64,000 bases of DNA from an uncultured Flavobacteriaceae bacterium. GTDB taxonomy: Bacteria > Bacteroidota > Bacteroidia > Flavobacteriales > Flavobacteriaceae. This document shows, piece after piece, positions 25,435 to 43,430 of the stretch. The notes below the pieces were generated by a model. The model worked only from the letters and a program-made list of their open reading frames with translations. It was not told the DNA's origin and searched no databases. Numbering within the stretch: position 1 is the stretch's first letter; the number at the start of each line of letters is the position of its first letter. The translations under genes were made by a program, and so were the position numbers. The DNA lies in the NCBI GenBank assembly GCA_947494565.1, contig CANLVG010000006.1:62001-126000 (forward strand). Reading direction: 5' to 3'.

Positions 25435-28400
25435 ATGAAAATGAGAACCGCCCACACTTTTTCCAAACTTCTAATACTAGTATGTCTGGTGTTAGGTTAT
25501 TCATCAACCTTATCCGCTCAAGCGGATTTTGTAGGTAATGTACAAACAGGCCCACTTAATCCGAGTACACCTTTTACGGTGACAATTGCACTGCAATCGA
25601 GCAGTCAGTTAGTCGATGCCGCAGAGGTACACTTGGCATTTGACCCGAGCGCTTTACAGGTCACTAATCTGTCGATCGCGGGCACGAATCAACTGACGAC
25701 CCCCTTTGTGTCACCGGTTTTTGATAATACGGCTGGTACAATCGATTATTCAGCGGGTGTTCAAACCCCGCCCGCAATTCCGGTTACGGCAAATTTCGAT
25801 TTTCTCGTAATCGAATTTGAAGCTTCACAGGCCGGTGTGACAACGGTAAACTTTGTGGACCCAAATCCTCCCATTGCATTAACGGTGGCCTATCTGGCCG
25901 GTACCGATGTCTTAAATGAACCAGATCCTATCGAATTGACGATTGTAGGTGCGAACGGAGATCCCGTAGCTGATTTTACGGCTACGCCCAATCCGGCGGA
26001 AACCGATCAAATTATTTCGTTTAACGCCTCGACTTCTTCGGATCCAGATGATGACCTACTTACTTATGAGTGGGATTTTGGTGATGGTGCCACGGGCAAT
26101 GGACAGACAATAGACCATGCGTATACTGCGGCGGATACGTACAATGTGGTGCTAACGGTAACCGACGGTAATGGAGGTAGCGATACTGAGAATATACAAG
26201 TTGTTGTAAACGCGCCTACCGTAACGACCTATGTTATTGCAGCAAGTGCAGGGCCAAATGGTTCCATTTCTCCCATTGGCGATACCTCAGTTATCGCTGG
26301 CGGAAATCAAATATTTACGATTACACCGGAATCAGGATATGAAATAGATGATGTCTTGGTCGGTGGAATATCCCAAGGTCCTCTGACTTCTTATGAATTT
26401 ATGAATGTTTCAGCTCCCGGGACAATTGCCGCAACTTTTAAATTAGCCGCATTCGATCCCATATATGTAAACTGTGGGGGAGGTGAAGTGAGCACTGGTG
26501 GCATCACATTTTTGGCCGACACCGGTTTTACGGGAGGTACCGCATTTCCCACTAACGCCGGTCAGGTGACTACTTTGGCGAATACCGATTTTGCGAATAC
26601 TTCGGATGACGAAATTTATCGCAAAGAACGTTTTGGCGACTATTCGTACAATTTTAATGTGCCCAATGGTGATTACATTGTTGACCTATACATAGCAGAG
26701 ATTTTTCAAGGTGTCTTAAATGCACCTTCAAATGCAATACCGGGTAAACGCATATTCAATGTGAATATTGAAGGAAATGCGATTGAGTTGGATAATTTTG
26801 ATGCACTAAATCCTAATTCGGGTGGTGCTTTTGCACCGGCTACCGGTCTGATCAAGACATTCGTAGTAACCGTCACTGACGGTGTTCTTAGCATAGCGAC
26901 TACTACGTTGGTAGACAATGCAAAACTAAGTGCTATAGGTATCAGGGCAAACGATGGTTCGGCCAATTCGGCCCCATCGATTACTACGATCAACGACATT
27001 GCTATAGACCAGGGAGATACTATAACACAAGCAATTACAGCGAGTGACGTAGATGGTATTTCTGAGTTTCAAATAAAGATTACAAACGACGCTGACGACA
27101 GTGTAGTCCCAAGTAGTTCCTACACCTTAACTCCCAATGGGAATAGTGCCGATTTTGAATGGATAACTGTAGCAGGCGATGCTGGTGAGTATACCGCTAC
27201 CTTGTTGGCCTTTGACGGAAAGGATGTCACTTCAACGACTTTTGCGATAAGCATTGGTATTGGCAATAATGCGGCCCCGACTATTGGAGCTATCGCTGAA
27301 GTTTTTGAGGTGAAGGAGAACGAAAGTATTACGATTCCGATTACGGTTACTGATGATACGGATACCTCGGCCTCCATCGTAATTTATGATAAGAGTATCA
27401 ATACAACTCCCGAAAATACGAACACAGTACCTTATACCTCTGGAGGAACGATAGCTGGCTATACCTTTTTGGAAAATCCTGTAGGTTCAGGGAATTATGT
27501 GCTTTCATTTGCGAGTGGTATTCCGGATTCAAGATCCTATTTTGCGCGGGTCACTGCGAATGACGGTGTCAATCCAGAAGTTACGGAAACCTTCATTATC
27601 AATGTGGCACATCCTGTATCCAACGATGCCAATACGCCAAGTGTCCTTGATGCCACTACTTTTTCAAACCCTTTACCATGGTATGGAAATAGTCCAGGAG
27701 TAAATGCGGAAGGAACTTTTACGGTTTCCATAGAAAATTCAGGTACCAATATCGGGTATATTGAAAACGGGGATTTTGTAGAATACCTTATCGATGTACC
27801 TGAAGCAGGTCTTTATGAGGTCAAGTTTACCTCTGCAAATGGAAGCGGGGCAAATGGTAGTTCTACCGATATTACCATGTTCGAAGAAGGAAACCCTACG
27901 TCCATAGGTTTCGTAACGGTTCCGAAAGCGGGATGGTCCAATTACAAGGATTTCACAACTACAGTGACCTTTGCCAACAGTGGGTTACAAACATTACTAT
28001 TGGAGTTCGACGGTGGGGTGAATACGCAAAAATTGGAGTTTACACCTTCAACGCAAAATACGACCCCTACAGTGCTTATTTCCACCCCAGCTGATGGTAT
28101 TGCTTTGACTACAGGCACTACATTGAATTTTAGCGGTACGGCCAATGACTTTCAAGATGGTGATTTATCGTCCACTATTATATGGACTTCAGATATCGAT
28201 GGCCCATTGGGGGTAGGAGCGGATATCACAGCTGCCCTTAGCACGATTGGCACGCATATAATAACTGCGGAAGCAACCGATAGTGACGCTTCTCCTTTAA
28301 CCGGTACTGCTACGGTCACTCTTGTAGTCACTGAGATCGACCCTTCTTGTGATGCTCGTTTTAGGGTCAACGCCGGTGGACCTACCTTGTTGGCCAACTT

Positions 28401-31400
28401 CGGTGATTTTGAAGAAGATCAGGCTGCTTCAGGAGCTGATGCAGGATCAAGTGCGAGCCCTGGTACACCTTCGCCCTATGTCAACTTAGGTGCACTTGCT
28501 GAAGATAAAACTTTTGGTTCACTAACGCCTCTTGTATCCAATACCACAGGATATCCTGATTTCTTGTTTCAGACGGAACGTTACAGCACGGTGGCCAACC
28601 CTGATAATATGAATTGGTCTTTCCCAACAGGTGATGGTATTTTCGATGTTAAGATATTATTTAACGAGAATTGGAATGGAGAAGGAGGAGATCCTCGGGT
28701 CTTTGATGTAGAAATTGAGGGTGACCTTGCTTTAGACGATTATAGGCCTTCAGTTGATGGAACGCAAATCAATGTAGCCAAAGTGGAAACATATCGGGCT
28801 ACTGTACGAGATGGTATTTTAAATGTCAATTTCCTCAAGGGAACTCAAAACCCTTCCGTTAAAGGTTTTGATATTTGTTTTATCTCTGATTTACCAAATG
28901 AGGCTCCCGAGGTCACCATTACGGCACCTGCCGATGGCGCGAATGTCATCAGAGGAACGGATATTCTATTGACCGCTACGGCCAATGATGCCGAGGACGG
29001 AGATATTTCCGGTTCGATTGAATGGTTATCTTCCGATACGGAGTTTGATACGGATGCCACAAATAATGTAGGCGCCTCTGTAAATGGACAATTTGTGAAA
29101 CCCGGCCCTCAAACATTGACGGCTAATGTTCTTGATTCAAATAGCGAATTGGGGACTGACGAAATTACAGTAAATGTTTCCTCTCCGGAGGTTGTGTTTA
29201 CAGCACCAAACAACGAAGATGATTTAAGTAGCTTGACGGTCAGTGTCACGGTGGATCCAACCAGTGTCTTATTTGACAATGCGGAACACTTCCATTTTTA
29301 TATCAACCCACCGGATATCAATGCTCTCGATTCCGAAAAGCGTATCTCTACGGCCGGTAGCTCCGCTACTACATTTGAATTCGATGAAAATAGCGGCTTG
29401 TTGGCCAAAGATGGCGCCGGTAATGGAATTATCGAAGGTCAGAATACTATTTTGGTTTTTGCTGCTGATAAGGATCATGTACAATTTCCGAATTCCGGAG
29501 CTATGGATATGATAACGTTTACGGTGACACTTCCTGATACGACACCGCCAACGATTACCTGTCCCGGCGATATAGTTGTGAATAACGATGCAGGGGAATG
29601 TGGAGCCGCGGTAGCTTTCAGTGCACCGGTTGGAGAGGATAACCTTCCTGGGGCGACAACGACTCAGACTGCAGGTCCAGCAAGTGGGGATGTTTTCCCA
29701 ATAGGAGAGACCACGGTTACTTTCGAAGTAGAGGATGCCGCAGGCAACAAAGAGCAGTGTAGCTTTACGGTTACCGTAAACGATACCGAAGCGCCTGAGG
29801 TAACCTGTCCACCGAACATTTCGGTGACCAGTCTTGATGGAAGTCCGATGATGATCGAGGATATCGGATTCGCTACTGCTAGTGATAACTGTCCCGGAAT
29901 TTTAGAGGTTACGGGTGAAGTAAGAGATACTGGTAACCCGATACCAAATATCTTCCCAGTAGGTACGACGATCATTCGTTGGTCGACTGTTGATTCCAAT
30001 GGTATTCCTGGATTTTGTGACCAGAGCATTACCGTGAATTTCACTGCGTCTACCGAAAAAGAGATAACCGCATTCACCTTAGCGAATCAAGTTGGAGCAA
30101 CAACGATAGTTGGAAATACCATTTCCTTGGATATGCCTGCGGGTAGTGATGTCACCAATTTGGTGCCCGCAAGTTTGGTATTCTCTGCTGGTGCTTCTAT
30201 CGAGCCTGGAACCAATGTGGCAAGAGACTTTAGTGGGTCGGTAGACTATACCGTTACCGCACAGGATAATAGCCAAAAAATATGGACGGTAGACGTGACC
30301 GTACTTCCTGATACGACACCGCCAACGATTACCTGTCCCGGCGATATAGTTGTGAATAACGATGCAGGGGAATGTGGAGCCGCGGTAGCTTTCAGTGCAC
30401 CGGTTGGAGAGGATAACCTTCCTGGGGCGACAACGACTCAGACTGCAGGTCCAGCAAGTGGGGATGTTTTCCCAATAGGAGAGACCACGGTTACTTTCGA
30501 AGTAGAGGATGCCGCAGGCAACAAAGAGCAGTGTAGCTTTACGGTTACCGTAAACGATACCGAAGCGCCTGAGGTAACCTGTCCACCGAACATTTCGGTG
30601 ACCAGTCTTGATGGAAGTCCGATGATGATCGAGGATATCGGATTCGCTACTGCTAGTGATAACTGTCCCGGAATTTTAGAGGTTACGGGTGAAGTAAGAG
30701 ATACTGGTAACCCGATACCAAATATCTTCCCAGTAGGTACGACGATCATTCGTTGGTCGACTGTTGATTCCAATGGTATTCCTGGATTTTGTGACCAGAG
30801 CATTACCGTGAATTTCACTGCGTCCTCCGAGAAAGAGATAACCGCATTCACTTTGGCAGGTCAAGTAGGAGCAACAACGATTAGCGGAAGCACGATTTCC
30901 TTGACCATGCCGATTGGAAGTGATGTCAGCAATTTGGTGCCCGCAAGTTTGGTATTCTCTGCTGGTGCTTCTATCGAGCCTGGAACCAATGTAGCAAGAG
31001 ACTTTAGCGATTTAATCGAATACACAGTTACAGCGCAAGACAACAGTGAAAAAGTATGGACCGTGAACGTTACGGTGTTGGAAGACACAACGCCGCCGAC
31101 AATTACCTGTCCTGGAGATATCGTAGTCGCTAACGATACTGGTGTTTGCGGTGCTGCGGTAGCTTTTAGTGACCCTGTAGGTGAGGATGATCTTCCTGGG
31201 GCAATAACCAAGCAGATTGCCGGTCCGAGCAGCGGTGACACTTTTCCGATCGGGGAAACGACGGTTACTTTCGAAGTAGAGGATGCCGCAGGTAACAAAG
31301 AGCAGTGTAGCTTTACCGTTACCGTAAACGATACGGAGGCACCAGTTGCGGTTTGTAGTGACACGACCATTCAATTGAATGCTTCAGGAACGGCGACTAT

Positions 31401-33825
31401 CAACGCGAACATTTTAGGTAGCGCATCTAGTGACAACTGTGGAATAGCGAGCATTACTTCCAGTAAGACAACGTTCACCGCGGCCGATTTGGGTGCGAAC
31501 ATTATTACCCTGACCGTTACCGATTTAAGTGGTACTCAAAGTACATGTACTTCTGTTGTTACGGTTGAAGCTGCCTCGGTTGGTAATACCCAGCTGACCG
31601 TCTTAGACGCTACAACGGACGAGCCACTATTTGATTTAGTAGATGGTTTGGTGATTAAAAAGAGTGATATTGGTAATACGCCATTAGGTATTATTTTCAA
31701 TGCGAGTTTCAATCCCAATGGAGTGTTCTTCAAACTCTCCGGGCCCATTACACAAAATAGAGGTGAGGGCCAAACCCCACCGTATTCACTTTTCGGTGAT
31801 ATCGGTGTTGATATTCAAGGGATGCCTTTTCCAGTAGGGAATTATACCCTCTCGGCCAATCCTAAAGTTGGACCAACGATAGTAGTGAACTTTGAAGTGA
31901 CCGATGTGGATCCAGCATGCGAGAATTTTGACTTAGCGGTTTCATCCTCAACTGACCCGACTACTTGTAATGGTACTGATGGTGAGATTGTTGTGAATAC
32001 CACAGGATCTACTTCATTGCCGGTAACCTATAGCTGGTCACATGATGCCAACCTTTCAGGAAATACTGCTACGGGTCTTGAGGAAGGTACCTATTCGGTT
32101 ACCGCTTCCGATGGAGCAGGATGTTCAGAAACAGTGACGATAACGCTTGATGGTCCGCCATTGCCGACGGTTACTTTGGCGCCTTTTGCCAATGTGTTGG
32201 AGACCGCTTCATCATTTGCGTTGACCGGAGGTCTTCCTGCAGGAGGAACCTATAGTGGCCAAGGCGTGACCAATAACACCTTTGATCCTAGTATAGGTCC
32301 TGGAAGTTATTCGATTACGTATACCTATACTGATGGTGAAGGTTGTTCAAATAGTGCATCAAGAAACATCTTGGTTACATCGGAAACAGCAAATGCTGCC
32401 CTTATCGTACTGGATGCGAGAGATGACACCGAGTTATTTGCGCTAACCGATGGACTTCAAATAAATAAGAGTACGATTGGTGAGATACCGTTAGGTGTTA
32501 TTTACAACACCAATTTGAATCCGAACGGTGTTTCTTTCAAGCTAACGGGTCCACTTACCCAGAATCGATTTGAAGGCCCTGCCCCGCACTCTTTATTTGG
32601 GGATATCGGAGTCAACATCATAGGGAAAGTATTTCCTGTAGGGAATTACACGCTAGTAGCGAACCCTAATAATGGACCAGCAATAACCGTCAATTTTTCC
32701 GTTGTCGAAGGTAATCCATTGTGCGATGACATGAATATTACTGTACAGTCGAAGGTGAATCCTAGTACTTGTGGAGGTTCTGATGGGGCTATTGTGCTTT
32801 CCATCACAGGAGCTGTTCAGCCCTATACCTATAGTTGGAGCCACGATAATTCGCTTCAGTCTTCTTCTGCGGCAGGGCTTACAGCCGGAACATATTCCGT
32901 TACGGTTACTGATGCCAATGGATGTTCTGATGAGGTCATGACCTCCTTAAGCGATCCTGCCGGTCCGAATGTGACCTTGGCGATGTTTGATTCAGTGATG
33001 GATACCGAAGATGCTTTTGACTTGACTGGCGGTATGCCTGTTGGAGGAACGTATTCCGGTGAAGGGGTATCCGACGGTATGTTCGATCCATCTGTTGGCG
33101 CTGGAACCTATACCATTACGTACTCATACACCGATTCGAATACAGGCTGCGACGGCAGTGCAGTGAGAAACATTACTGTTACAACGGTGAACGCTGAACT
33201 TTCTGTGCTCAGTTTCACGTTGGTGAACGCCAATACAAGTGCCGATATTCTTACTCTAACGAGTGGAGCGGTTATTGCCATAGGTGATCTGCCTACAACA
33301 AATCTGAACATTCGGGCGAACACGACCGCGGATGTTGGTAGTGTGTCATTTACATTGACAGGCGCGCAATCGCATGGTAGCTTGGAAAATGTCGAACCGT
33401 ATGCCCTATTCGGAGATTCTCCGGCAGGTGTTTACGTTGGAAATGAATTCATTACCGGTAACTATGTAGTATCCGCGACCCCGCACTCCTTAAATGGAGG
33501 TGGAGGAGCCACAGGGACTGCATTGACTATTGGATTTACGTTGCAGGAGGCAACACTTTCGGCGAAAGCTGTTCGTGAAATGACTATTTCACCCAACCCG
33601 GTCGATAAGGTTGCCACGCTCCTTTTTGAAACACCGAAGAGGGTAAGTACAATCAATGTTTATGATTCAACCGGTAGGTTGGCCAAAACTTTTGTTGGCG
33701 AAGTAGGAGAAGAAATAACGATAAGACAGATTCCGGTTCAGGACCTACCATCAGGTACGTATTTCGTACGTACTATTGACGCTAGCGGAAAAGAACTGCA
33801 ACAACAAATGGCTATTAAACGATAG
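25435..33825 (+). CDS. Giant T9SS-secreted protein with cohesin-like, PKD, malectin, HYR and SprB modules
   Basis: 2796 residues from ATG 25435; an ATG at 25411 would add eight residues before the signal peptide (about 1-29, ending TLSAQA). Order, approximate residues: cohesin-like domain 31-172; PKD 173-261 with YEWDFGDG; InlB-type repeat 262-338; malectin 342-505; Ig/cadherin-like 505-725; CBM6-like 735-870; Ig-like 876-965; second malectin 970-1160; Ig-like region; HYR and DUF5018-like units 1365-2045, including an exact 522-bp duplication; three copies of an SLFGD-motif domain (about 2052, 2320 and 2587) alternating with two SprB repeats; T9SS type A tail 2717-2796 (ISPNPVDKVATLLF to QQQMAIKR). 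No catalytic domain was recognised. It looks like a cell-surface scaffold or carbohydrate-binding adhesin. The next giant gene follows after 29 bp. Confidence 0.9.
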   Translation: MKMRTAHTFSKLLILVCLVLGYSSTLSAQADFVGNVQTGPLNPSTPFTVTIALQSSSQLVDAAEVHLAFDPSALQVTNLSIAGTNQLTTPFVSPVFDNTAGTIDYSAGVQTPPAIPVTANFDFLVIEFEASQAGVTTVNFVDPNPPIALTVAYLAGTDVLNEPDPIELTIVGANGDPVADFTATPNPAETDQIISFNASTSSDPDDDLLTYEWDFGDGATGNGQTIDHAYTAADTYNVVLTVTDGNGGSDTENIQVVVNAPTVTTYVIAASAGPNGSISPIGDTSVIAGGNQIFTITPESGYEIDDVLVGGISQGPLTSYEFMNVSAPGTIAATFKLAAFDPIYVNCGGGEVSTGGITFLADTGFTGGTAFPTNAGQVTTLANTDFANTSDDEIYRKERFGDYSYNFNVPNGDYIVDLYIAEIFQGVLNAPSNAIPGKRIFNVNIEGNAIELDNFDALNPNSGGAFAPATGLIKTFVVTVTDGVLSIATTTLVDNAKLSAIGIRANDGSANSAPSITTINDIAIDQGDTITQAITASDVDGISEFQIKITNDADDSVVPSSSYTLTPNGNSADFEWITVAGDAGEYTATLLAFDGKDVTSTTFAISIGIGNNAAPTIGAIAEVFEVKENESITIPITVTDDTDTSASIVIYDKSINTTPENTNTVPYTSGGTIAGYTFLENPVGSGNYVLSFASGIPDSRSYFARVTANDGVNPEVTETFIINVAHPVSNDANTPSVLDATTFSNPLPWYGNSPGVNAEGTFTVSIENSGTNIGYIENGDFVEYLIDVPEAGLYEVKFTSANGSGANGSSTDITMFEEGNPTSIGFVTVPKAGWSNYKDFTTTVTFANSGLQTLLLEFDGGVNTQKLEFTPSTQNTTPTVLISTPADGIALTTGTTLNFSGTANDFQDGDLSSTIIWTSDIDGPLGVGADITAALSTIGTHIITAEATDSDASPLTGTATVTLVVTEIDPSCDARFRVNAGGPTLLANFGDFEEDQAASGADAGSSASPGTPSPYVNLGALAEDKTFGSLTPLVSNTTGYPDFLFQTERYSTVANPDNMNWSFPTGDGIFDVKILFNENWNGEGGDPRVFDVEIEGDLALDDYRPSVDGTQINVAKVETYRATVRDGILNVNFLKGTQNPSVKGFDICFISDLPNEAPEVTITAPADGANVIRGTDILLTATANDAEDGDISGSIEWLSSDTEFDTDATNNVGASVNGQFVKPGPQTLTANVLDSNSELGTDEITVNVSSPEVVFTAPNNEDDLSSLTVSVTVDPTSVLFDNAEHFHFYINPPDINALDSEKRISTAGSSATTFEFDENSGLLAKDGAGNGIIEGQNTILVFAADKDHVQFPNSGAMDMITFTVTLPDTTPPTITCPGDIVVNNDAGECGAAVAFSAPVGEDNLPGATTTQTAGPASGDVFPIGETTVTFEVEDAAGNKEQCSFTVTVNDTEAPEVTCPPNISVTSLDGSPMMIEDIGFATASDNCPGILEVTGEVRDTGNPIPNIFPVGTTIIRWSTVDSNGIPGFCDQSITVNFTASTEKEITAFTLANQVGATTIVGNTISLDMPAGSDVTNLVPASLVFSAGASIEPGTNVARDFSGSVDYTVTAQDNSQKIWTVDVTVLPDTTPPTITCPGDIVVNNDAGECGAAVAFSAPVGEDNLPGATTTQTAGPASGDVFPIGETTVTFEVEDAAGNKEQCSFTVTVNDTEAPEVTCPPNISVTSLDGSPMMIEDIGFATASDNCPGILEVTGEVRDTGNPIPNIFPVGTTIIRWSTVDSNGIPGFCDQSITVNFTASSEKEITAFTLAGQVGATTISGSTISLTMPIGSDVSNLVPASLVFSAGASIEPGTNVARDFSDLIEYTVTAQDNSEKVWTVNVTVLEDTTPPTITCPGDIVVANDTGVCGAAVAFSDPVGEDDLPGAITKQIAGPSSGDTFPIGETTVTFEVEDAAGNKEQCSFTVTVNDTEAPVAVCSDTTIQLNASGTATINANILGSASSDNCGIASITSSKTTFTAADLGANIITLTVTDLSGTQSTCTSVVTVEAASVGNTQLTVLDATTDEPLFDLVDGLVIKKSDIGNTPLGIIFNASFNPNGVFFKLSGPITQNRGEGQTPPYSLFGDIGVDIQGMPFPVGNYTLSANPKVGPTIVVNFEVTDVDPACENFDLAVSSSTDPTTCNGTDGEIVVNTTGSTSLPVTYSWSHDANLSGNTATGLEEGTYSVTASDGAGCSETVTITLDGPPLPTVTLAPFANVLETASSFALTGGLPAGGTYSGQGVTNNTFDPSIGPGSYSITYTYTDGEGCSNSASRNILVTSETANAALIVLDARDDTELFALTDGLQINKSTIGEIPLGVIYNTNLNPNGVSFKLTGPLTQNRFEGPAPHSLFGDIGVNIIGKVFPVGNYTLVANPNNGPAITVNFSVVEGNPLCDDMNITVQSKVNPSTCGGSDGAIVLSITGAVQPYTYSWSHDNSLQSSSAAGLTAGTYSVTVTDANGCSDEVMTSLSDPAGPNVTLAMFDSVMDTEDAFDLTGGMPVGGTYSGEGVSDGMFDPSVGAGTYTITYSYTDSNTGCDGSAVRNITVTTVNAELSVLSFTLVNANTSADILTLTSGAVIAIGDLPTTNLNIRANTTADVGSVSFTLTGAQSHGSLENVEPYALFGDSPAGVYVGNEFITGNYVVSATPHSLNGGGGATGTALTIGFTLQEATLSAKAVREMTISPNPVDKVATLLFETPKRVSTINVYDSTGRLAKTFVGEVGEEITIRQIPVQDLPSGTYFVRTIDASGKELQQQMAIKR
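29529..30050 (+). repeat. Exact 522-bp direct duplication, copy 1
   Basis: Identical by eye to 30303-30824, an offset of 774 bp (258 codons). It encodes two HYR-type domains starting at DTTPPTITCPGDIVV. The frame is kept, so the copy is a clean domain duplication. The flanking DUF5018-like segments (30051-30302 and 30825-31077) are similar but diverged. Confidence 0.92.
30303..30824 (+). repeat. Exact 522-bp direct duplication, copy 2
   Basis: Second copy of 29529-30050. A third, diverged HYR copy begins near 31084 (DTTPPTITCPGDIVVANDTG), showing that older copies have drifted while these two have been recently duplicated or converted. Confidence 0.92.
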
Positions 33826-33854
33826 AAATAAGTCCCAATATAAAAGAGAAAAAA

Positions 33855-36800
33855 ATGAAAAAGTATCCTGTAAATGCCATGATGGTGGAGTCCCCTACGC
33901 TCGCTATCGTCCAAAGGCAAAATATAATGAGTCCAATGAAATGGGTCGGTATGGCAATTACTGCCTTATTCTTGATGTTCTTGGGAGTTCAAAACCTGAG
34001 CGCGCAGTCCTTTGGACAAAGTAACTTGAACTTTGATGGAAACGGAGGAGTGAACAACGGTACATCACTGATGTATGGTCCTGATGGGCGACTCTATGTG
34101 TTGAGTCTAAATGGAACCATAGACATTTTCACAGTTCAAAAGAACGGTAACAATGACTATGTGGTTACCGCTTCGGAAGAGTTATTGGATGTCAAAAATA
34201 TTCCAAACCATAACGATGATGGTAGTAATACCAGTGGTGACTCAAGGGAAGCAACCGGTTTGACCGTGGCAGGAACAGCGACAAACCCTATAATGTATGT
34301 TACGTCAAGTGATTCAAGGGTAGGTGGGCCAGCTGGAGACAAAAACTTGGATACCAATTCTGGGGTCATCACCAGATTGACCTGGACCGGAAGTGAATGG
34401 GACGTTGTCGATATCGTACGCGGATTGCCGAGGTCAGAGGAAAATCATGCCACTAATGGTCTTGAATTCGTGACCATCGGTACCACGGACTTCTTGATTG
34501 TTGCCAGTGGTGGCCATGCGAATGCGGGTGCCCCTTCGGACAATTTTGCATGGACTACGGAGTATGCACTTTCAGCGGCAGTTCTTTCGGTCAATTTGAC
34601 CATGCTTGAGGCCATAACGCCTATGCTCGACGGAGGACGAAAGTATCTTTATGATTTGCCTACACTTGATGATCCCACAAGGCCCAACGTTGGCCCTGAA
34701 GATCCTGATGCCGGTGGTTATACCGGTATTGACGTGAACGACCCATGGGGAGGTAACGATGGGCTGAACCAAGCCATGATCGTTGAAGGCGGGCCAGTAC
34801 AGATTTTTTCCGCAGGTTACCGTAACAGTTATGACTTGGCCGTCACGGAAAGTGGCGCCGTATATGTGACCGACAATGGAGCCAATGGTGGATGGGGCGG
34901 TTTGCCGGAAGGTGAAGGTACCGCCAATGTAACCAACAATTACAATCCGGCAGAACCGGGTAGCAGTTCCCCGGTAGATGGTGAGCAGGTGGATAATCAA
35001 GATCATCTGTCTTTGGTGACCACTGACATTCAGAATTATAACTTCGGCAGTTTCTATGGAGGACATCCAGCTCCGATTCGAGCAAACCCGGAAGGTGCTG
35101 GTCTGTATACAAACCCTTCGGAAAACAATACCGTTGGGGCAGTATTCAGAACTAAAAAATATGATCCCACTGGCACTAAAGACCCAAATATCTATACCTC
35201 AGATGCGAGTATTGCCCTTCCAGCAAACTGGCCTCCGGTGCCTGTAGGATTGGCAGATGTGCGTCAAGGCGATTGGAGAGGTCCTACCGTATTCAATCCA
35301 GATGGCCCGCAAGACGTTCTTGTTACTACATGGCAGAACAACAGTAATGGGATAGATGAGTACACCTCGACCATTTTTACAGGTGAGGAAAGTATGGTCG
35401 GTGACCTTATCGTAGGACGAAATAGCAATAACGTTAAAAGTTTGCACCGTGTGGAGCTTCAACCAGATGGTAGTTTGGAAAACTTGACTCAAAATTTTAT
35501 CTCTAACCTTGGAGGTAATCCTCTTGGAATTACCTGTAATAGTGATACCGATCCCTTTCCAGGAACGATTTGGGTGGCTACCTTTAATGGTACCATTAAA
35601 ATTTTTGAGCCGGAACCTAATATCATTTGTATCGATCCCACGGATCCCTTATTTGTTGAAACCGATGATACGGACCTCGATGGCTACGCGAATCTAGATG
35701 AAGTTCAAAATGGTGTTGATCATTGTAACGGTGGTGCACAGCCCACAGACTTTGATAAAGATGCAGGAGGAACATTAGTATCCGATTTAAATGATACGGA
35801 TGATGACAATGACGGCATTCTTGATAAGGACGACGTGTTTCAATTGGGTGACCCTACGGACTCCGGAAGCGACGCTTTTGATTTGCCGGTATTGAACGAT
35901 CTCTTATCGGATAATCCAGTACTTAAAGGAATTTCAGGACTCGGTATGACCGGATTTATGAACAACGGAGCACCTAATCCGAACTGGCTTGATTGGCTGG
36001 ATGTCCTTGGAGCAGGCCCGAATCCGAACGATATTGTCGGAGGCGCAGTTGGTGCGATGACTTTACAGATGACCGATGGCACGGCGCTTGGCACGACAAA
36101 TGATCAAGATAAGGGCTACCAATATGGCGTCAATGTCGATCAATCCTTAACTAGTTTTACGGTCGAAGGGCGTTTGCTGAATTTTACTGACCCCCTTCAA
36201 CTATATGGTTCTTCCGCTCCGACGAATGGTGAGCTTGGCTTGTTCATCGGGGATGGTACCCAGAGCAATTATATCAAATTTGTGGTCAACCAAACAGGGT
36301 TACAAGCGTTGCAAGAAATTAATGATGTACCGCAGGCACCCATCGAATTGGCCCTAGCTCCAGGGGATCGACCCAATGGCAGCATGACGATTTTCTTTAC
36401 AGTCGATCCAGCCACTGGTATTGTGACCTTGCAATATAAAATTAACGGGGGAACGATGCAGACCTTGGGTGACATTACGGCTCAAGGGGCAGTACTCAAT
36501 GCGATACAACAAAGCAACAATCCCTTGGCCGTAGGTTTGATCGGTTCTTCGAATACCGTTGGAGCGGAAGTGGAAGGAACTTGGGATTACTTATACGTAC
36601 AAGCCAGCCAGCCTACGATTCAACAGCCCATACCCGATTCTAGCTTTTTGGTTGGGGAAACGGCTACGTCTTACTCTTTGGATGAGTATTTCAGTGATGA
36701 TGGGGGTGACGCGAATCTTGTGTATTCTGTATTCTCGAATACAAATGTATTGTTCGATCCACAGGTCAATAACAATATTTTGGATGTTTCCTTACCTAAT

Positions 36801-39800
36801 GAAGCAGCTACCACGGAAATTACCATTCGTGCCACGGATGGAGCAGGTCTTTTCGTTGATCAGACCTTTACGGTTACTATTAGCGATGAGCCCATACCCA
36901 TTATACGAATTCGAGCCAATGGAGCGTCGATTACGGCTACGGATGCACCGAATCCAAATTGGCAAGGCATTACCGCCACCGGAGCGCAATCCGGAACGTC
37001 AAATGGTATTGGTTACAGTGTGAATGGCGGAAATCATTCTACACACAATATTGCGGGTAGGGACGCTTCTCTACCGGACTACGTACCACAGGCTATTTTT
37101 GCCAATGAGCGCTGGGATCCCCCTGCAGGTGCCGAGATGTTGTGGAATTTTACGCTTCCCGATGGTGATTATTTCGTGCGTTTGTATATGGGCAATGGTT
37201 TTGATGGTACGTCCACTGTTGGAACCCGTGTTTTTGATATTTCAATCGAAGGGGTACTCGTACAAAATGATATTGATTTGATTACCGAGTTCGGTGATGA
37301 CACAGGCGGTATGAAAGAATACCAGGTTACGGCAACTGGTGGTGACCTCACTATTCTTTTCGAACATGTAGTTGAAAACCCATTGATTAACGGAATCGAG
37401 ATCCTGAGTTTAGGCGGAACCTTTACACCCCCATTGGCGGTTGATGCGATACCGAACCAAGCCAGCAGCGTAGGTGCTTTGGTGAATCTCGATATTATCA
37501 ATGCCTCAGGCGGAGACAGCAATGAGAACTTCATGTATTCCGCTACCGGCCTGCCTCCGGGATTAGAGATAGAACCTACCACAGGAAATATTAACGGAAC
37601 AATTGAAGCAAATGCAGACGCAGGCAGTCCGTATACGGTAGAGATTACCGTAGACAAAACTTCCAGTGATGCAGTTAGTACTACCTTTTCTTGGACTGTC
37701 AATGATGGTTCAAATCCAGGAGGGGTAGTGTATCGTGTGAATACCGGAGGGGGTCTGACCTCTTCAAACGATAGTTCACCCGTAGCTTGGGAAGAAGATC
37801 AAAAATCTGCGGGCAGCCCAGGAAACATAGGAGGTAACGCAGTAACCGGAACGCCCTCTCCCTATGTGAATTTCGCTACCCAAGATTTGACTTTTGGAGC
37901 TGATTTACCAGGAGGGTTCGTGAATTCCACAGGTTACCCGAATGCGTTATTCGCTACGGAACGCTATAATTCCAATCCGGTACCGGATAATATGAAGTGG
38001 AGTTTCCCCACCGGTAATGGCACTTTTCAAGTAAATCTATTGTTCAATGAAAATTGGGCGAATGAAAATGCCGAAACAGCGAATAACCGAATCTTCGATG
38101 TTGAAATAGAAGGTGCGCTTGTTCTGGATAATTACCGTCCTTCCGTCGATGGTTCTGAAACGAATATTGCGAAAGTTGAGTCTTTTCAGACTATTGTAGA
38201 TGATGGTACCTTGAATATAGACTTTATACAAATTAACCAGAATCCCGCGATTAAGGGAATCGAGATTATTGCTGCGGCACCACCAGTTAATGACGAATGG
38301 ACTGCACAAACCGATGATGAAAACCATACGGCAAGGCATGAATGTTCTTTTGTTCAGGCCGGCGATAAGTTTTATCTGTTCGGTGGTAGGGAGAACCCAG
38401 CTGATTTGGACGTTTACGATTATCAATCGAAAACTTGGAGTACTATAGGATCTTCGGCACCTTCCGATTTCAATCACTTTCAGGCAGTGGAATACAACGG
38501 TCTGATTTGGGTTATTGGAGCCTTTAAGGATAATGATTTCCCGAATGAGGTACCTGCCGATTTTGTATGGACTTACAACCCGGCAACGGATGATTGGGTA
38601 CAAGGGCCTGCGGTGCCAAATGCTCGAAAAAGAGGATCTGCCGGTCTTGTGATGTACAATAACAAGTTCTATGTCATTGCAGGGAATGCAGACGGTCACG
38701 ATGGACAATATGTGCCGTGGTTTGATGAGTTTGATCCGGCTACCGGTATTTGGACTACATTGGCCGATGCTCCACGAGCACGGGATCACTTTCACGCCGG
38801 AGTCATAGACGATAAATTATATGTTGCTGGTGGACGTCTTTCTGGAGGACCTGGTGGAACGTTTAGTCCACTTATTGCGGAAGTCGATGTTTTCGATTTT
38901 TCTGCTGGAACCTGGTCTACTTTACCAGCCGGGCAGAATATACCGACCCCAAGAGCAGCCGCTTCGGTAGCCGTTTTCCAAGATGAGTTGTATGTTATTG
39001 GAGGCGAAATCGAAAATGATCTTGATGGTAATCTTGTAGATGATGCGGTTACAACAACAGAATCTTTTAATCCCGCTACAGGGAATTGGACCTCTAGGGC
39101 CGACTTAATCACCGAAAGACATGGCACACAAGCTATTGTATCAGGGAACGGCATACATGTTACTGCCGGTTCGAGCTCTAAAGGCGGTGGAGGTACTATG
39201 AAGAACATGGAGTTCTTTGGTACAGATAACCCACAAGGTACTCCGTTGGTTGCAGGCGTGCTAACATTACCTTCTGACATCACTGTCCCTACGGGAGGTA
39301 CGGAAACGGTTTCAATAACCCATTCCAGTGGTAACGCGGCGGTGATTATTACAAGTATACAATTAGGTGGAACCAATGCAAGTGAGTTTTCGATTTCTTC
39401 GAATACAGGATTTGGTCTAATTAATCCGGGAGAGACGGTATCCGTTTCAATAGTGCATACGGGATCTTCCCAAGGCGAAACGGCTAGTTTAGTAGTGGCT
39501 TATGATGACGGAAAAAGTGTGAACTCTCCAATAGTTTCTGGGGAAGCCATAGATGCGGTACTCTACCGTATCAATGCTGGAGGTGCCTTGGTGGCGGACG
39601 CAGCGGGCGACTTCGAAGAAGATCAAAGTGCTGCCAGTGCTGGAGGATCTGCAAATACGGGAACACCTTCGCCATACGTCAATACTGTAGCTCCAGCTGT
39701 GGATAATACTTTTGGTTCAAACGCCGCATTGGCGCAAAATACCACGGGCTATCCGGATGCAGTTTTCCAGACAGAACGCTGGAGCGATGCGGCCAATCCG

Positions 39801-42800
39801 AACAATATGAATTGGAGCTTCCCGACAGGGGATGGCACCTTTCGTGTAAACCTTTTGTTCAATGAGAACTGGGCGGACGAAAACGCAGCACCGGCCAATA
39901 ATCGTATTTTCGATGTTGAAATCGAAGACGTCCTGGTTTTGGATGATTATCGTCCATCAGGAGACGGTTCCGATGTAAATATCGCCAAAGTCGAGTCTTT
40001 CTTGGCCATTGTAAATGACGGTACATTGAATATTGATTTTATCAAAGGGAATCAAAATCCAGCGATAAAAGGAATTGAAATCCTAAGTGTTACCCCGACA
40101 ACGGGAGGAGGCCCCTTAGTGACCAATCCTGGTGCTCAAGTGAGCGTTGAAGGAGATGTGATCAATTTGCCGATTGTGGCGCTCGATGGAACAAGTCCGC
40201 CTTGTGGGCCATTGACATACACTGCTGAAAATCTTCCGGAAAATCTGACAATCGATGAGACGACCGGAGTAATTTCAGGCACCTTGCTTGAAGGTACCGG
40301 TAGTGGAACCGCTGGGGCCTTTATTGAAGAAAATGGTCTGGTGGTCATCGAAATGGAGTCTACTGATAATTTGCCGGGCAGTTGGGTAAATGCTGCAAAT
40401 GCGACTTCTCCAAACATTACGAGCCCAGAAAACGCCACAGGCGATGATTTTATCGTTTGGGAAGCAGGACAGTTTCTAAGTCAAACAGGTGTCTCAACTA
40501 TTACCTATCCGGTAGAAATAACCACCACGGGTGTCTATCAATTCAAATGGCGGACCCAAGTGGGGAACGGCACCAGTTCTACGGATCACAATGATACTTG
40601 GTTGAAAATCGAAGGGGATGCCTTTTATGGACAAAAAGGTAATGGGAGTAGTATTGTCTGTCCAAAAGGATTCAATGGAAGTACGAATGATTGTACGGGG
40701 AATGTGCCCCAAGGTGCTGGAGGAAATGGCTGGTTCAAGGTCTTCTCAAGTGGTTCAACAAACTGGACATGGTCCACGTTGACCAGTGACAACGATGGAC
40801 ATCAAATATTCGCTCGTTTTGACAATCCGGGTACATACAATATATTGATTTCGGTTCGCTCGAGTAATCATGCGTTGGATCGAATGGTCTTGGCGCACTC
40901 AGGTTTTAGTGGTAATGAACAAAACCTTTCCCTTCCTGAGTCAGAGAGAGCTGTCGGGCAGGTACAGGGTGCTTCTGCCGATAGCCCGTATGATGTGGTC
41001 GTCAATGTGACCGATGCATGTGATCCCCAAGGTACGACCCAGGTAGAGTTTACTTGGAACGTTACCGCTACGGAGATTGGCGATCCTTCTGCCACAGTAG
41101 GAGTTACAACAGGTAGTGATATCAGTTCGTCTACCTTCGGTAACAATTCTTTTGTGATCCAGAACACGGGTGATGACGAAATTGTGAACATCACATTGGA
41201 TATGACTTCAGGGTTTATGAAAGATGTGGTTTTCGACCCCGTAGGTACGGCTGGGGATTCCACCGCAAAATGTCTAACGGGTGGATCTAGCCCAGGAGGA
41301 CCAGTTGGCCTAACGGTAGGAGCTGACGGAAGCGGACAAGATGATTGTGTGGACATCTTCACGCAATTTCACAATGGAATCGATGATGAAGAAGGGTATG
41401 ATATCATGAGTCTTGATTTTACGGATTTCAATCCTGGTGAGACCTTTAGTTTTGGGGTGGATATGGATCCTACAACCATAAAAGGAGATTTAACGGCTGG
41501 TGATGCGGGATCGATTTCCGGATTTGAACTGATCGGCGCTACCATTAGTATTCAATTTGCAAGTGGTGTTGTATATACCTCAAGTTTATTCGATGAGGGG
41601 TCATTGGGCGGTTCCGATGTGATCATCAATGGGGATAGTAATGCATTGATCGCTCCATCTATTCTCGTTGATGGACTGGCTACCTCACGCTTGGTTACGG
41701 ACGCTAATCACTTGGTAGAGGTAACGGGTTCACCGAATAGTTCAATCACCCTTCTACGAGTAGATGGACGTTTGTATATAGATCCGGGTAATCCGAGTGT
41801 TGGGTATGATATCGATTTATTCGAGGCCAACCAGGCCTTAGCCAAAGAACTGTACACCGTACAATTGGGTCCTTCAGGTGTTGCGAACATACCCGTGACC
41901 CTAACCCAGACCCCAGGGGCAACCAACACTCCAGATGGTGGATTGAACCATTTTATTGCCGTGGTCAACGGACCGAATGGGGAAAACAGTATAGCCTCTA
42001 ATGTCATTGTCTTGGAATATGATCCCGATGCCATAATAGGTCCGGCCGTGTTGATCGAGATGACACCAGGAGCCGATTTGGATACCAGTACGTTTACGGC
42101 TGGAAGCATGCAGATTACCAACAATTCTTCAGGGGCCCTGCAGATTACCAATGTCACCATTGACCTTAGTACGGGTATCTTACCAGATATGGTATTCGAT
42201 CCGTTAGGTAATGGTGGTGACGCTACGGCCAAGTGTTTCGAGGCCAGTACAGGCGCAACGGCCGTTGGTTTAGTAGTGCCTGCAGATCCTTGCGCTACAC
42301 CATTCTCGCAACCAAGAAACGGAGGTTTTGATGTGATGAGTATCGACTTTACGGAGTTTGACCCAGGTGAGATTTTCACCTTTGCTACGGATATCGATCC
42401 AAACAGTATTCAAGCGGTGCCCGGAGCAGGAGCAGCGGGATCGGTTTCCGGTTTTGAAGTGGTGGGCGCAACGGTGACCATATCCTTTAGTGATGGTTCC
42501 AATTTGACGACGAGTATATATGAGGATGGTTCCTTGGGTGGAGGCCAGGCCATAGCGGCTCTTGACACTCCTGTGACCCCATCCATTTCGGTTGTTGGAA
42601 CTGGAGTCGGGCCTGCAACGGTCAATAGCTTAAATCAAGTCGTAACCGTGACCGGAACCCCTGGAGATGTAGTTTCCTTGATGGTCGTTGATTCGAGATT
42701 GTATATCGCGCAAGGAGGTGATCCGTTTAATGTTCCTGATCCGACATACTACGCCAATGAAGCCATGGCAAAAAGTCTTTATACAGGGTTGATCGGCACT

Positions 42801-43430
42801 GGAGGTTCTGTGGATATTCCTATTGAGCTATTACAGACCTCGTTCGGTAACGGTACTCCCGATGGTGGGTTGAATCAGTTGGTGGCAGTGACGTCTTCCG
42901 GGGCGTATGCACCAGATAAACCTGTCAGTAATACTTCAAATGTCGTGACGTTATTGTATGATCCAAATGCGGTCGATACCGGTGATTTGACCCTTTCCTA
43001 CACCATGCAAGGAAGAACTGACCTAACGACCGAGATGACCGTTGAGGTATATGAGCAAGGAGCATCGGTTCCTAGTTATCAATTTACGCCTACGGGAAGC
43101 GCTGGAGGTGAGGTAACGGTTTCCGGTATTGAAGCGGGCACTTATGAAGTGGCTGTTAAAGTATCCAATTACTTACAACGGGTGACCACAGTTACCATCG
43201 TGGCTGGTGCCAACACGGCGTCGGTAGCCGAGCTAAGGGCGGGAGATGCTAATAACGATAACTTTGTAACGCTTCAAGACTTTTCGATTTTGGCGGGTAC
43301 GTTTAATCTACAGGAAGGAGGAGCCGGCTATGACCCTCGCGCCGATTTCAATGGAGATGGTTTTGTGACCTTGGTCGACTTCTCATTGTTGGCCTCTAAT
43401 TTCAATACCCAAGGTGAGGAAGTCCCCTAA
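33855..43430 (+). CDS. Giant secreted protein with beta-propeller, malectin, Kelch and C-terminal dockerin
   Basis: 3191 residues. Start chosen at ATG 33855; ATGs at 33927 and 33936 would give a more usual signal peptide (KWVGMAITALFLMFLGVQ, cut after LSAQ). Order: glucose/sorbosone dehydrogenase-like propeller 55-585; calcium-binding Asp-rich segment 590-670 (DTDLDGYANLDEVQNG, DDDNDGILDKDD); lectin-like region 670-915; cadherin-like 916-1012; malectin 1014-1187; Ig-like 1190-1285; malectin 1291-1474; Kelch repeats 1481-1792; choice-of-anchor-D-like 1796-1899; malectin 1902-2079; Ig-like domain split by a CBM-like insert (2154-2365); two related units of about 300 residues 2404-3042; carboxypeptidase-regulatory-like 3044-3126; dockerin 3127-3191 with two loops, GDANNDNFVTLQDF and ADFNGDGFVTLVDF. 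No T9SS tail. It may reach the surface by binding the cohesin-like domain of the preceding protein; this is inference. Confidence 0.88.
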   Translation: MKKYPVNAMMVESPTLAIVQRQNIMSPMKWVGMAITALFLMFLGVQNLSAQSFGQSNLNFDGNGGVNNGTSLMYGPDGRLYVLSLNGTIDIFTVQKNGNNDYVVTASEELLDVKNIPNHNDDGSNTSGDSREATGLTVAGTATNPIMYVTSSDSRVGGPAGDKNLDTNSGVITRLTWTGSEWDVVDIVRGLPRSEENHATNGLEFVTIGTTDFLIVASGGHANAGAPSDNFAWTTEYALSAAVLSVNLTMLEAITPMLDGGRKYLYDLPTLDDPTRPNVGPEDPDAGGYTGIDVNDPWGGNDGLNQAMIVEGGPVQIFSAGYRNSYDLAVTESGAVYVTDNGANGGWGGLPEGEGTANVTNNYNPAEPGSSSPVDGEQVDNQDHLSLVTTDIQNYNFGSFYGGHPAPIRANPEGAGLYTNPSENNTVGAVFRTKKYDPTGTKDPNIYTSDASIALPANWPPVPVGLADVRQGDWRGPTVFNPDGPQDVLVTTWQNNSNGIDEYTSTIFTGEESMVGDLIVGRNSNNVKSLHRVELQPDGSLENLTQNFISNLGGNPLGITCNSDTDPFPGTIWVATFNGTIKIFEPEPNIICIDPTDPLFVETDDTDLDGYANLDEVQNGVDHCNGGAQPTDFDKDAGGTLVSDLNDTDDDNDGILDKDDVFQLGDPTDSGSDAFDLPVLNDLLSDNPVLKGISGLGMTGFMNNGAPNPNWLDWLDVLGAGPNPNDIVGGAVGAMTLQMTDGTALGTTNDQDKGYQYGVNVDQSLTSFTVEGRLLNFTDPLQLYGSSAPTNGELGLFIGDGTQSNYIKFVVNQTGLQALQEINDVPQAPIELALAPGDRPNGSMTIFFTVDPATGIVTLQYKINGGTMQTLGDITAQGAVLNAIQQSNNPLAVGLIGSSNTVGAEVEGTWDYLYVQASQPTIQQPIPDSSFLVGETATSYSLDEYFSDDGGDANLVYSVFSNTNVLFDPQVNNNILDVSLPNEAATTEITIRATDGAGLFVDQTFTVTISDEPIPIIRIRANGASITATDAPNPNWQGITATGAQSGTSNGIGYSVNGGNHSTHNIAGRDASLPDYVPQAIFANERWDPPAGAEMLWNFTLPDGDYFVRLYMGNGFDGTSTVGTRVFDISIEGVLVQNDIDLITEFGDDTGGMKEYQVTATGGDLTILFEHVVENPLINGIEILSLGGTFTPPLAVDAIPNQASSVGALVNLDIINASGGDSNENFMYSATGLPPGLEIEPTTGNINGTIEANADAGSPYTVEITVDKTSSDAVSTTFSWTVNDGSNPGGVVYRVNTGGGLTSSNDSSPVAWEEDQKSAGSPGNIGGNAVTGTPSPYVNFATQDLTFGADLPGGFVNSTGYPNALFATERYNSNPVPDNMKWSFPTGNGTFQVNLLFNENWANENAETANNRIFDVEIEGALVLDNYRPSVDGSETNIAKVESFQTIVDDGTLNIDFIQINQNPAIKGIEIIAAAPPVNDEWTAQTDDENHTARHECSFVQAGDKFYLFGGRENPADLDVYDYQSKTWSTIGSSAPSDFNHFQAVEYNGLIWVIGAFKDNDFPNEVPADFVWTYNPATDDWVQGPAVPNARKRGSAGLVMYNNKFYVIAGNADGHDGQYVPWFDEFDPATGIWTTLADAPRARDHFHAGVIDDKLYVAGGRLSGGPGGTFSPLIAEVDVFDFSAGTWSTLPAGQNIPTPRAAASVAVFQDELYVIGGEIENDLDGNLVDDAVTTTESFNPATGNWTSRADLITERHGTQAIVSGNGIHVTAGSSSKGGGGTMKNMEFFGTDNPQGTPLVAGVLTLPSDITVPTGGTETVSITHSSGNAAVIITSIQLGGTNASEFSISSNTGFGLINPGETVSVSIVHTGSSQGETASLVVAYDDGKSVNSPIVSGEAIDAVLYRINAGGALVADAAGDFEEDQSAASAGGSANTGTPSPYVNTVAPAVDNTFGSNAALAQNTTGYPDAVFQTERWSDAANPNNMNWSFPTGDGTFRVNLLFNENWADENAAPANNRIFDVEIEDVLVLDDYRPSGDGSDVNIAKVESFLAIVNDGTLNIDFIKGNQNPAIKGIEILSVTPTTGGGPLVTNPGAQVSVEGDVINLPIVALDGTSPPCGPLTYTAENLPENLTIDETTGVISGTLLEGTGSGTAGAFIEENGLVVIEMESTDNLPGSWVNAANATSPNITSPENATGDDFIVWEAGQFLSQTGVSTITYPVEITTTGVYQFKWRTQVGNGTSSTDHNDTWLKIEGDAFYGQKGNGSSIVCPKGFNGSTNDCTGNVPQGAGGNGWFKVFSSGSTNWTWSTLTSDNDGHQIFARFDNPGTYNILISVRSSNHALDRMVLAHSGFSGNEQNLSLPESERAVGQVQGASADSPYDVVVNVTDACDPQGTTQVEFTWNVTATEIGDPSATVGVTTGSDISSSTFGNNSFVIQNTGDDEIVNITLDMTSGFMKDVVFDPVGTAGDSTAKCLTGGSSPGGPVGLTVGADGSGQDDCVDIFTQFHNGIDDEEGYDIMSLDFTDFNPGETFSFGVDMDPTTIKGDLTAGDAGSISGFELIGATISIQFASGVVYTSSLFDEGSLGGSDVIINGDSNALIAPSILVDGLATSRLVTDANHLVEVTGSPNSSITLLRVDGRLYIDPGNPSVGYDIDLFEANQALAKELYTVQLGPSGVANIPVTLTQTPGATNTPDGGLNHFIAVVNGPNGENSIASNVIVLEYDPDAIIGPAVLIEMTPGADLDTSTFTAGSMQITNNSSGALQITNVTIDLSTGILPDMVFDPLGNGGDATAKCFEASTGATAVGLVVPADPCATPFSQPRNGGFDVMSIDFTEFDPGEIFTFATDIDPNSIQAVPGAGAAGSVSGFEVVGATVTISFSDGSNLTTSIYEDGSLGGGQAIAALDTPVTPSISVVGTGVGPATVNSLNQVVTVTGTPGDVVSLMVVDSRLYIAQGGDPFNVPDPTYYANEAMAKSLYTGLIGTGGSVDIPIELLQTSFGNGTPDGGLNQLVAVTSSGAYAPDKPVSNTSNVVTLLYDPNAVDTGDLTLSYTMQGRTDLTTEMTVEVYEQGASVPSYQFTPTGSAGGEVTVSGIEAGTYEVAVKVSNYLQRVTTVTIVAGANTASVAELRAGDANNDNFVTLQDFSILAGTFNLQEGGAGYDPRADFNGDGFVTLVDFSLLASNFNTQGEEVP

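Follow-up and report, generated by a model that had tools for sequence, protein, structure and literature searches.

The locus analysed here raises the question of how a giant protein without a C-terminal sorting signal of the type IX secretion system (T9SS) might be held at the cell surface. The window, by which we mean the whole 64,000-nucleotide stretch of contig CANLVG010000006.1 from an uncultured Flavobacteriaceae bacterium, contains two adjacent giant genes, here called P1 and P2 (Table 1). A first-pass annotation, made from the DNA letters of the window, had suggested that the second protein docks through a C-terminal dockerin onto an N-terminal cohesin-like domain of the first. The two open reading frames (ORFs), their 29-bp spacing and all the motifs cited in it are present in the sequence; the P1 frame opens at 25411 and not at 25525, as had been annotated. 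Our analysis, too, gives its best support to a P2 that lacks a tail and docks to P1; it draws on the conservation of the pair, on the mutual exclusion of dockerin and sorting tail, and on correlated sequence distances. P1 and P2 probably form a two-protein surface fibre, in which the P2 dockerin sits on the P1 cohesin and the P1 anchor holds P2. The dockerin-cohesin binding itself is inferred, as are its calcium dependence, the position at the cell surface, and when and where docking occurs.

P1 opens with a signal-peptide-like start and the cohesin-like domain, continues, by Pfam, with PKD, two Malectin domains, CBM6, HYR repeats and SprB repeats, and ends in a T9SS tail. The tail, which the first-pass annotation had also recognized, scored 36.3 bits with Por_Secre_tail (cut-off 27) and 30.1 bits with TIGR04183 (cut-off 23). 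The genome encodes SprA (447 bits in a profile search) together with 20 Por_Secre_tail matches above the cut-off, and we therefore regard it as that of a T9SS organism. P2 is composed of a signal-peptide-like start, a propeller-like domain, three Malectin stretches, a Kelch propeller, He_PIG, an fn3-like domain and the dockerin. By Pfam, P1 bears the C-terminal sorting tail typical of T9SS cargo and P2 does not, as a scan of the whole P2 protein gave no Por_Secre_tail match. The Dockerin_1 profile (PF00404, cut-off 22.9 bits) matched P2 with 24.6 bits as a whole protein and with 32.3 bits as the isolated 66-residue piece, and the family's own dockerin profile reached 114 bits. Both duplicated calcium loops fit the D-x-N-x-D...D pattern, so that P2 has the above-threshold profile match and the loop pair of a type I dockerin; the two loops had already been annotated as those of a dockerin. 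Dockerin_1 was matched by 27 of the 28 rows of the dockerin family at E≤0.01. Pfam identified no hydrolase family in P2 (NCBIfam GlucurArabfur reached 91 bits against a cut-off of 1800), and the earlier remark that the pair shows no obvious glycoside hydrolase is borne out by Pfam.

The N-terminal domain of P1 is a cohesin as judged by its family, by profile comparison with the PDB and by its predicted fold. The isolated domain scored 17.8 bits (E 0.0039) with Pfam Cohesin (PF00963), below the curated cut-off of 24.1; the scan of full-length P1 gave no match at E≤1, and genome-wide nothing exceeded the cut-off. The cohesin-like domain of the first-pass annotation is hence upheld by family and fold, not by the Pfam threshold for the window copy, and its span is corrected in Table 1. 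Among the aligned rows of the P1 cohesin family, 32 of 38 match Cohesin at E≤0.1. As whole proteins, relatives from Formosa (25.6 bits) and Mangrovimonas (25.7 bits) pass the cut-off, as do the multi-cohesin relatives from Neolewinella persica (37.2 bits) and Portibacter (63.5 bits). Searching the PDB with the family profile placed cellulosomal scaffoldin chains on top (best 3.4e-9), and two of the 22 matches at E≤1 bore unrelated names (7urp, 7vqm). The AlphaFold2 model of the domain has a mean predicted local distance difference test score (pLDDT) of 91.7 and a predicted template modelling score (pTM) of 0.87. Foldseek found 92 PDB matches for it at E≤0.001 (best E 3.1e-8), of which the best 50 all come from cohesin or cohesin-bearing scaffoldin entries; seven of these 50 are scaffoldin entries without cohesin in the title (3kcp, 4fl4), whose chains presumably contain cohesins. 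At E≤1e-4, P1 and P2 are the sole genome-wide matches to the cohesin and dockerin family profiles, and the P2 dockerin is the only Dockerin_1 match above the Pfam cut-off in the genome. Pfam Cohesin also gave 14 bits at G000:C5, a match to which the family profile did not respond at E≤1e-4.

An indication of what the dockerin does comes from relatives of P2. We compared 34 proteins that share the conserved P2 N-terminal domain and have a complete end, after dropping five that run off the sequence. Seventeen of them have a dockerin, and 16 of these 17 lack a T9SS tail of their own; in the seventeenth (L048, Portibacter), a cohesin and a tail are located behind the dockerin. Among the 17 dockerin-less relatives, 15 carry a tail, some on weak evidence: ten were recognized by our own tail profile, three by Pfam (Por_Secre_tail 28.0, 23.4 and 22.2 bits, E≤1.8e-4, one above the cut-off of 27) and two in an overlapping frame (L049 by Pfam and our profile, L025 by our profile only), while two showed none. 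Our profile was built from the tails of P1 and P3, the latter being a third giant protein described below, at the same loci, and missed the three weak Pfam tails. The exclusion between dockerin and own tail gives a Fisher probability of 2e-6 with all 15 tails and of 0.002 with the strict ten. The most likely role of the dockerin is to stand in for the T9SS tail, with P2 tethered through it to P1. As the dockerin occupies the position of the T9SS tail in related proteins, the dockerin-like end could itself be a non-canonical T9SS sorting signal, with the cohesin serving some other task; we consider this highly improbable in view of the cohesin partnership and the interface features described below. 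P2 relatives with neither a dockerin nor a T9SS tail were found at L042 (bin label Anaerolineae) and L046 (Pseudomonadales), reflecting either transfer or mis-binning.

The partnership was examined in 36 loci with P2 relatives by running the cohesin, dockerin and T9SS-tail profiles on all ORFs of at least 60 amino acids. A cohesin gene is present in 17 of 18 dockerin loci and in none of the 18 dockerin-less loci (Fisher 4e-9), in a comparison that ignores kinship, includes some short dockerin-less loci and counts L018 and L021 from one genome. The sole dockerin locus without a cohesin gene, L015, lies on a contig that ends inside the upstream tail-bearing gene. Such constant company argues against a sorting signal with no need of a cohesin. 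The pair, which the first-pass annotation had called unusual, is not isolated but recurs in several architectures. In type a, as in the window, a giant gene running from cohesin to T9SS tail stands upstream of a giant dockerin gene; members come from Robiginitalea (L014, L035), Muriicola (L018), Pricia (L024), Maribacter (L020) and uncultured Flavobacteriaceae (L016, L017). In type b, the dockerin gene is followed by a minimal cohesin and T9SS-tail gene (L039 from Formosa maritima, with 262 residues; L041; and L044 twice). Minimal partners have reading frames of 252–299 residues; all four of the type b proteins match Por_Secre_tail, two of the four exceed the Cohesin cut-off, and Pfam finds nothing else in these proteins of about 260 residues at E≤0.1. 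Type c, from the Lewinella group, consists of a dockerin protein, a protein with both cohesin and dockerin, and a cohesin protein with a tail (L019, L028, L032, and also L033, where the tail is in an overlapping next ORF). In type d, dockerin, cohesin and tail are joined in a single polypeptide (L040, L048), adjoined by multi-cohesin proteins. At L023, a dockerin gene precedes a gene that encodes two cohesins and matches the tail profile weakly.

Another reading holds that the cohesin-like domain binds a carbohydrate or other surface ligand and that its dockerin neighbourhood reflects operon inheritance only. Both P1 and P2 are rich in modules of carbohydrate-binding type, and co-inheritance alone would yield co-occurrence. 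The gene order, however, varies, with the cohesin either upstream or downstream of the dockerin gene, yet the two modules stay together, and we judge ligand binding alone to be improbable. The position of the modules within their proteins is also regular. In the 36 loci, 25 of 27 cohesin genes have their first cohesin within 136 residues of the reading-frame opening, and in 23 of 27 dockerin genes at most four residues follow the dockerin. With cohesins N-terminal and dockerins C-terminal, the usual product would therefore be linear, joined head to tail, and the T9SS tail would close the chain.

The association extends to genomes sampled across the family. Among 395 genomes, 13 contain the dockerin and 14 the cohesin (one at 23 bits), and all 13 are within the 14, so that the conservation of the pair in relatives, which the first-pass annotation had made a touchstone of its proposal, holds in every dockerin genome as well as in nearly every dockerin locus. 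Without the five genomes that served as profile sources, the remaining 390 include eight with a dockerin and nine with a cohesin, with an overlap of eight (hypergeometric 7e-16, kinship ignored). Of the 15 dockerin genes in the family sample, 14 adjoin a cohesin gene and none ends in a T9SS tail; of the 15 strong cohesin genes, every one ends in a T9SS tail and 14 adjoin a dockerin gene. For three genomes, gene adjacency was taken from the identical loci L014, L018 and L024.

Several individual genes are of interest in their own right. A lone dockerin gene (L137:6040-8829, minus strand) encodes GSDH, PSCyt1 and a dockerin, resembles a dehydrogenase/cytochrome, and belongs to the genome of the Muriicola pair on a different contig from the cohesin gene; from its domains, its product is possibly a second, enzymatic client acting in trans. 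The gene L138:9076-10287 encodes 404 residues with two cohesins and a T9SS tail, has no dockerin match among its flanking ORFs, and comes from a genome that holds a complete pair elsewhere. At L141:3502-6858, a dockerin and minimal-partner pair adjoins secA (Pfam), and the corresponding position in L139 and L142 is occupied by an ORF whose C-terminus is very similar. A second locus of the Portibacter-type genome, L140:8578-14679 (minus strand), encodes a Kelch/Malectin protein that ends in dockerin and cohesin, with no recognized tail.

A working interface would be expected to leave marks on both partners. In the accessible text of PMC8063739, positions 10 and 11 of each repeat set the specificity of studied dockerins, and dual binding rests on the two-fold symmetry of the dockerin. 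Among 24 non-redundant dockerins (four of 28 were dropped at identities of at least 85%), loop position 10 is identical between the two loops in 21 and position 11 in 13, compared with 7.8 and 4.7 in shuffles that exchanged loops between proteins. The two-fold symmetry of the recognition positions is thus present across the set; the window dockerin itself has L/L at position 10 and Q/V at position 11. Identity is likewise clearly in excess at positions 7, 9, 17, 18 and 21 (p 0.0016 or less). As relatedness inflates the p-values, more weight belongs to the differences among positions. The excess is smaller at positions 8, 14, 16 and 23, and none is seen at 2, 4, 6, 15, 19 and 22.

Divergence of the dockerin also follows that of the cohesin in the neighbouring protein. 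Pairwise distances correlate with r of 0.72 in type a (n=8) and 0.59 in type b (n=10), leaving out L044, which has two pairs, and not using chain and tandem loci. Once the T9SS tail of the cohesin protein and the stretch preceding the dockerin are accounted for, the partial correlation is 0.66 in type a (permutation p 0.0002) and 0.54 in type b (permutation p 0.0024). The dockerin tracks the T9SS tail of the same partner less closely, with 0.15 and 0.33 (p 0.22 and 0.052), which argues against operon inheritance with ligand binding as the whole explanation. Symmetric recognition positions and divergence correlated with the cohesin likewise speak against a mere sorting signal, as does the genome of the lone Muriicola-type dockerin, which also holds a cohesin.

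Several observations weigh against the docking of P2 to P1. The window cohesin taken alone remains below the Pfam threshold, and co-inheritance as a single operon would in itself account for a large share of the joint occurrence. A correlation is also seen between the tail of the partner and the stretch preceding the dockerin (0.51 and 0.45 in types a and b), the type b cohesin correlates with the tail of its own protein (0.63), and the samples for these correlations are small. One dockerin gene and one double-cohesin gene are solitary in the family sample. In a class-wide sample of 396 genomes, 12 have a cohesin and 15 a dockerin, with an overlap of four (hypergeometric 0.0006); 11 of the 15 dockerin genomes lack a cohesin match and eight of the 12 cohesin genomes lack a dockerin match at the threshold. 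The four overlap genomes match profile-source loci by ORF lengths, the window included, and this sample therefore provides no independent evidence. Its unpaired genomes carry weaker and more distant types, and G271 and G175 have a 14–16-bit dockerin-like match in or beside the cohesin gene. Close relatives of the P1 cohesin occur in two of 14 genomes of the genus, counting its own, and the distribution of the system is patchy. Lastly, a naturally occurring dockerin-cohesin tandem (alignment A7, with four dockerin rows), modelled as one chain in lieu of the complex, reached a pTM of 0.64 with a mostly confident cohesin; its dockerin was unreliable, with block means of 40–57 pLDDT, and no interface was seen. 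The alignments A5 and A7 are sound, with just three and four dockerin rows, respectively; A3, A4 and A6 were rejected, as they aligned cohesin rows with the dockerin. Distant members of the class include L054:703-3404, a gene with two cohesins and a 16-bit dockerin match beside a cohesin gene, and L060, where the ORF next to a cohesin gene has a dockerin-like match of 14 bits.

For P2 docked on P1, we envisage the following arrangement. P1 and P2 would each start with a likely Sec signal peptide, and the 29-bp gap between the genes is consistent with a single transcript. The calcium-loaded P2 dockerin would bind the P1 cohesin, presumably giving an end-to-end chain of P2-dockerin, cohesin-P1 and T9SS tail with together about 6,000 residues, and P2 would be kept at the cell surface through the anchor of P1. 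The fixed polarity, the tail-less dockerin proteins and the minimal cohesin and tail proteins fit either anchoring only, or docking in the periplasm combined with passenger export. In passenger export, which extends the docking model, the cohesin protein with its T9SS tail would take the dockerin protein, which has no tail, through SprA as a bound passenger. The start of P2 resembles a signal peptide and its end lacks a tail, most dockerin-less relatives own one, and Pfam recognizes nothing besides a cohesin and a tail in the four minimal partners; SprA is described as carrying folded proteins in the accessible text of PMC9251779. Two giant proteins may, on the other hand, exceed one translocon cycle, and another route across the outer membrane followed by docking outside is an alternative; we see passenger export as plausible but somewhat short of probable. 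A narrow literature search returned nothing on T9SS passenger export, a weak absence; "piggyback" in the available portion of PMC9251779 refers to peroxisomes.

Classical cellulosomes assemble outside the cell. By analogy, P2 might pass the outer membrane in some other way, and P1 might then capture it at the surface. No second route was noticed, though no search was aimed at one, and the dockerin-less relatives mostly own a T9SS tail; we see capture outside as possible but less likely than not. We tentatively advance the broader idea, still short of likely, that cohesin and dockerin serve as a detachable T9SS tail in these Bacteroidota, in which a tail-less giant protein, or an enzyme, would dock in the periplasm on a tail-owning cohesin protein, and the complex, of up to three polypeptides head to tail, would leave via SprA. 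If true, the T9SS would export passengers, and a surface fibre could exceed the length that a single gene encodes. The exchange of tail for dockerin, with such small partners, is a concise natural setting in which to ask whether the T9SS can export a partner lacking a signal of its own.

Coupling by cohesin and dockerin is already known, and a cohesin scaffoldin with an attachment domain has already been predicted in Cloacimonadota, according to the accessible text of PMC8542988. With the clostridial cellulosome, the system shares the cohesin fold, as predicted here, and the two-calcium-loop dockerin with symmetric recognition positions; the Lewinella-group chain resembles the enzyme, adaptor and anchoring scaffoldins. 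It differs in that the window has one cohesin and one dockerin without any Pfam glycoside hydrolase family, and in that the anchor is a T9SS tail and the mostly N-terminal cohesins and C-terminal dockerins would join linearly. A cellulosome has several cohesins on its scaffoldin and dockerin-bearing hydrolases; the genome has a single cohesin match at E≤1e-4 (N. persica and Portibacter have several), no hydrolase family in P2 and no second dockerin above the threshold. For Candidatus Stygibacter (Cloacimonadota), the available portion of PMC8542988 describes a predicted cellulosome-like complex, in which a cohesin scaffoldin with a conserved C-terminal surface-attachment domain, for which a T9SS review is cited, receives dockerin clients. 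There, a single scaffoldin of 3,755 residues carries repeated cohesins and carbohydrate-binding modules and serves hydrolase and peptidase clients (PMC8542988), unlike the system described here with its adjacent pairs, a dockerin replacing the tail of the client, and minimal cohesin and tail partners. Compared with T9SS type A cargo, P1 has the usual signal-peptide-like start and Por_Secre_tail in a genome with SprA, whereas P2 and nearly all dockerin proteins seen lack the tail, L040 and L048 being the exceptions. We found no account of the exchange of dockerin for tail, of minimal cohesin and tail proteins or of linear chains in these Bacteroidota, in literature searched without most subscription journals and preprints. 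In several lineages a dockerin stands where a secretion or anchoring tail would be, and the smallest partners consist of just a cohesin and a tail. This suggests that giant surface fibres may be built from separately encoded pieces, and offers a possible coupling module for surface display in Bacteroidota.

Table 1. Coordinates of the P1 and P2 genes and their features in the window
Feature	Coordinates	Strand	Description	Basis
P1	25411..33825	+	2804 aa; putative anchor/adaptor partner	ORF and Pfam
P1 likely Sec signal peptide	25411..25518	+	hydrophobic stretch near residue 17, then SAQ	inspection
P1 cohesin domain	25519..25950	+	residues 37-180; first domain past signal peptide	
P1 T9SS type A sorting tail	33586..33822	+	residue 2726 onward	Por_Secre_tail, TIGR04183
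P1-P2 gap	33826..33854	+	29 bp; same strand	
P2	33855..43430	+	3191 aa; without T9SS tail	ORF and Pfam
P2 likely Sec signal peptide	33855..34004	+	hydrophobic stretch near residue 34, then SAQ	inspection
P2 conserved N-terminal domain	34005..35654	+		alignment A8, 13 rows
P2 fn3_3/PEGA-like domain	43047..43220	+	directly before dockerin	fn3_3 22.1 bits, cut-off 24.4
P2 dockerin	43230..43427	+	residues 3126-3191, extreme C-terminus	
P2 dockerin calcium loop 1	43245..43280	+	DANNDNFVTLQD	
P2 dockerin calcium loop 2	43344..43379	+	DFNGDGFVTLVD	

Across relatives, whether they carry the dockerin or not, the P2 N-terminal domain is strongly conserved and contains many invariant Asp, Asn, His and Arg residues. 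No Pfam family exceeded its cut-off in the window copy, and weak matches among the 13 aligned rows were to GSDH (5/13), NHL (5/13) and SSL_N (7/13). Against the PDB, the single sequence found nothing and the profile reached E-values of 0.17 and 0.5 at best. Judging from the sequence, the domain is possibly an uncharacterised propeller. A comparison with the domain of the Muriicola-type GSDH-dockerin protein found no similarity.

The start codon of P1 is ambiguous, with further ATGs at codons 9 and 11. P1 also contains an internal repeat at 29529-31376 with three 300-nt copies at a spacing of 774 bp, of which copies 1 and 2 are 100% identical over 300 nt and copy 3 is 71% identical; it represents either a recent duplication or a spot in the assembly that deserves care. 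About 1.1 kb past P2 follows P3 (44571-55220, 3549 residues), which comprises 12 DUF285 stretches (990 bits), CBM96, PKD domains and a T9SS tail of its own.

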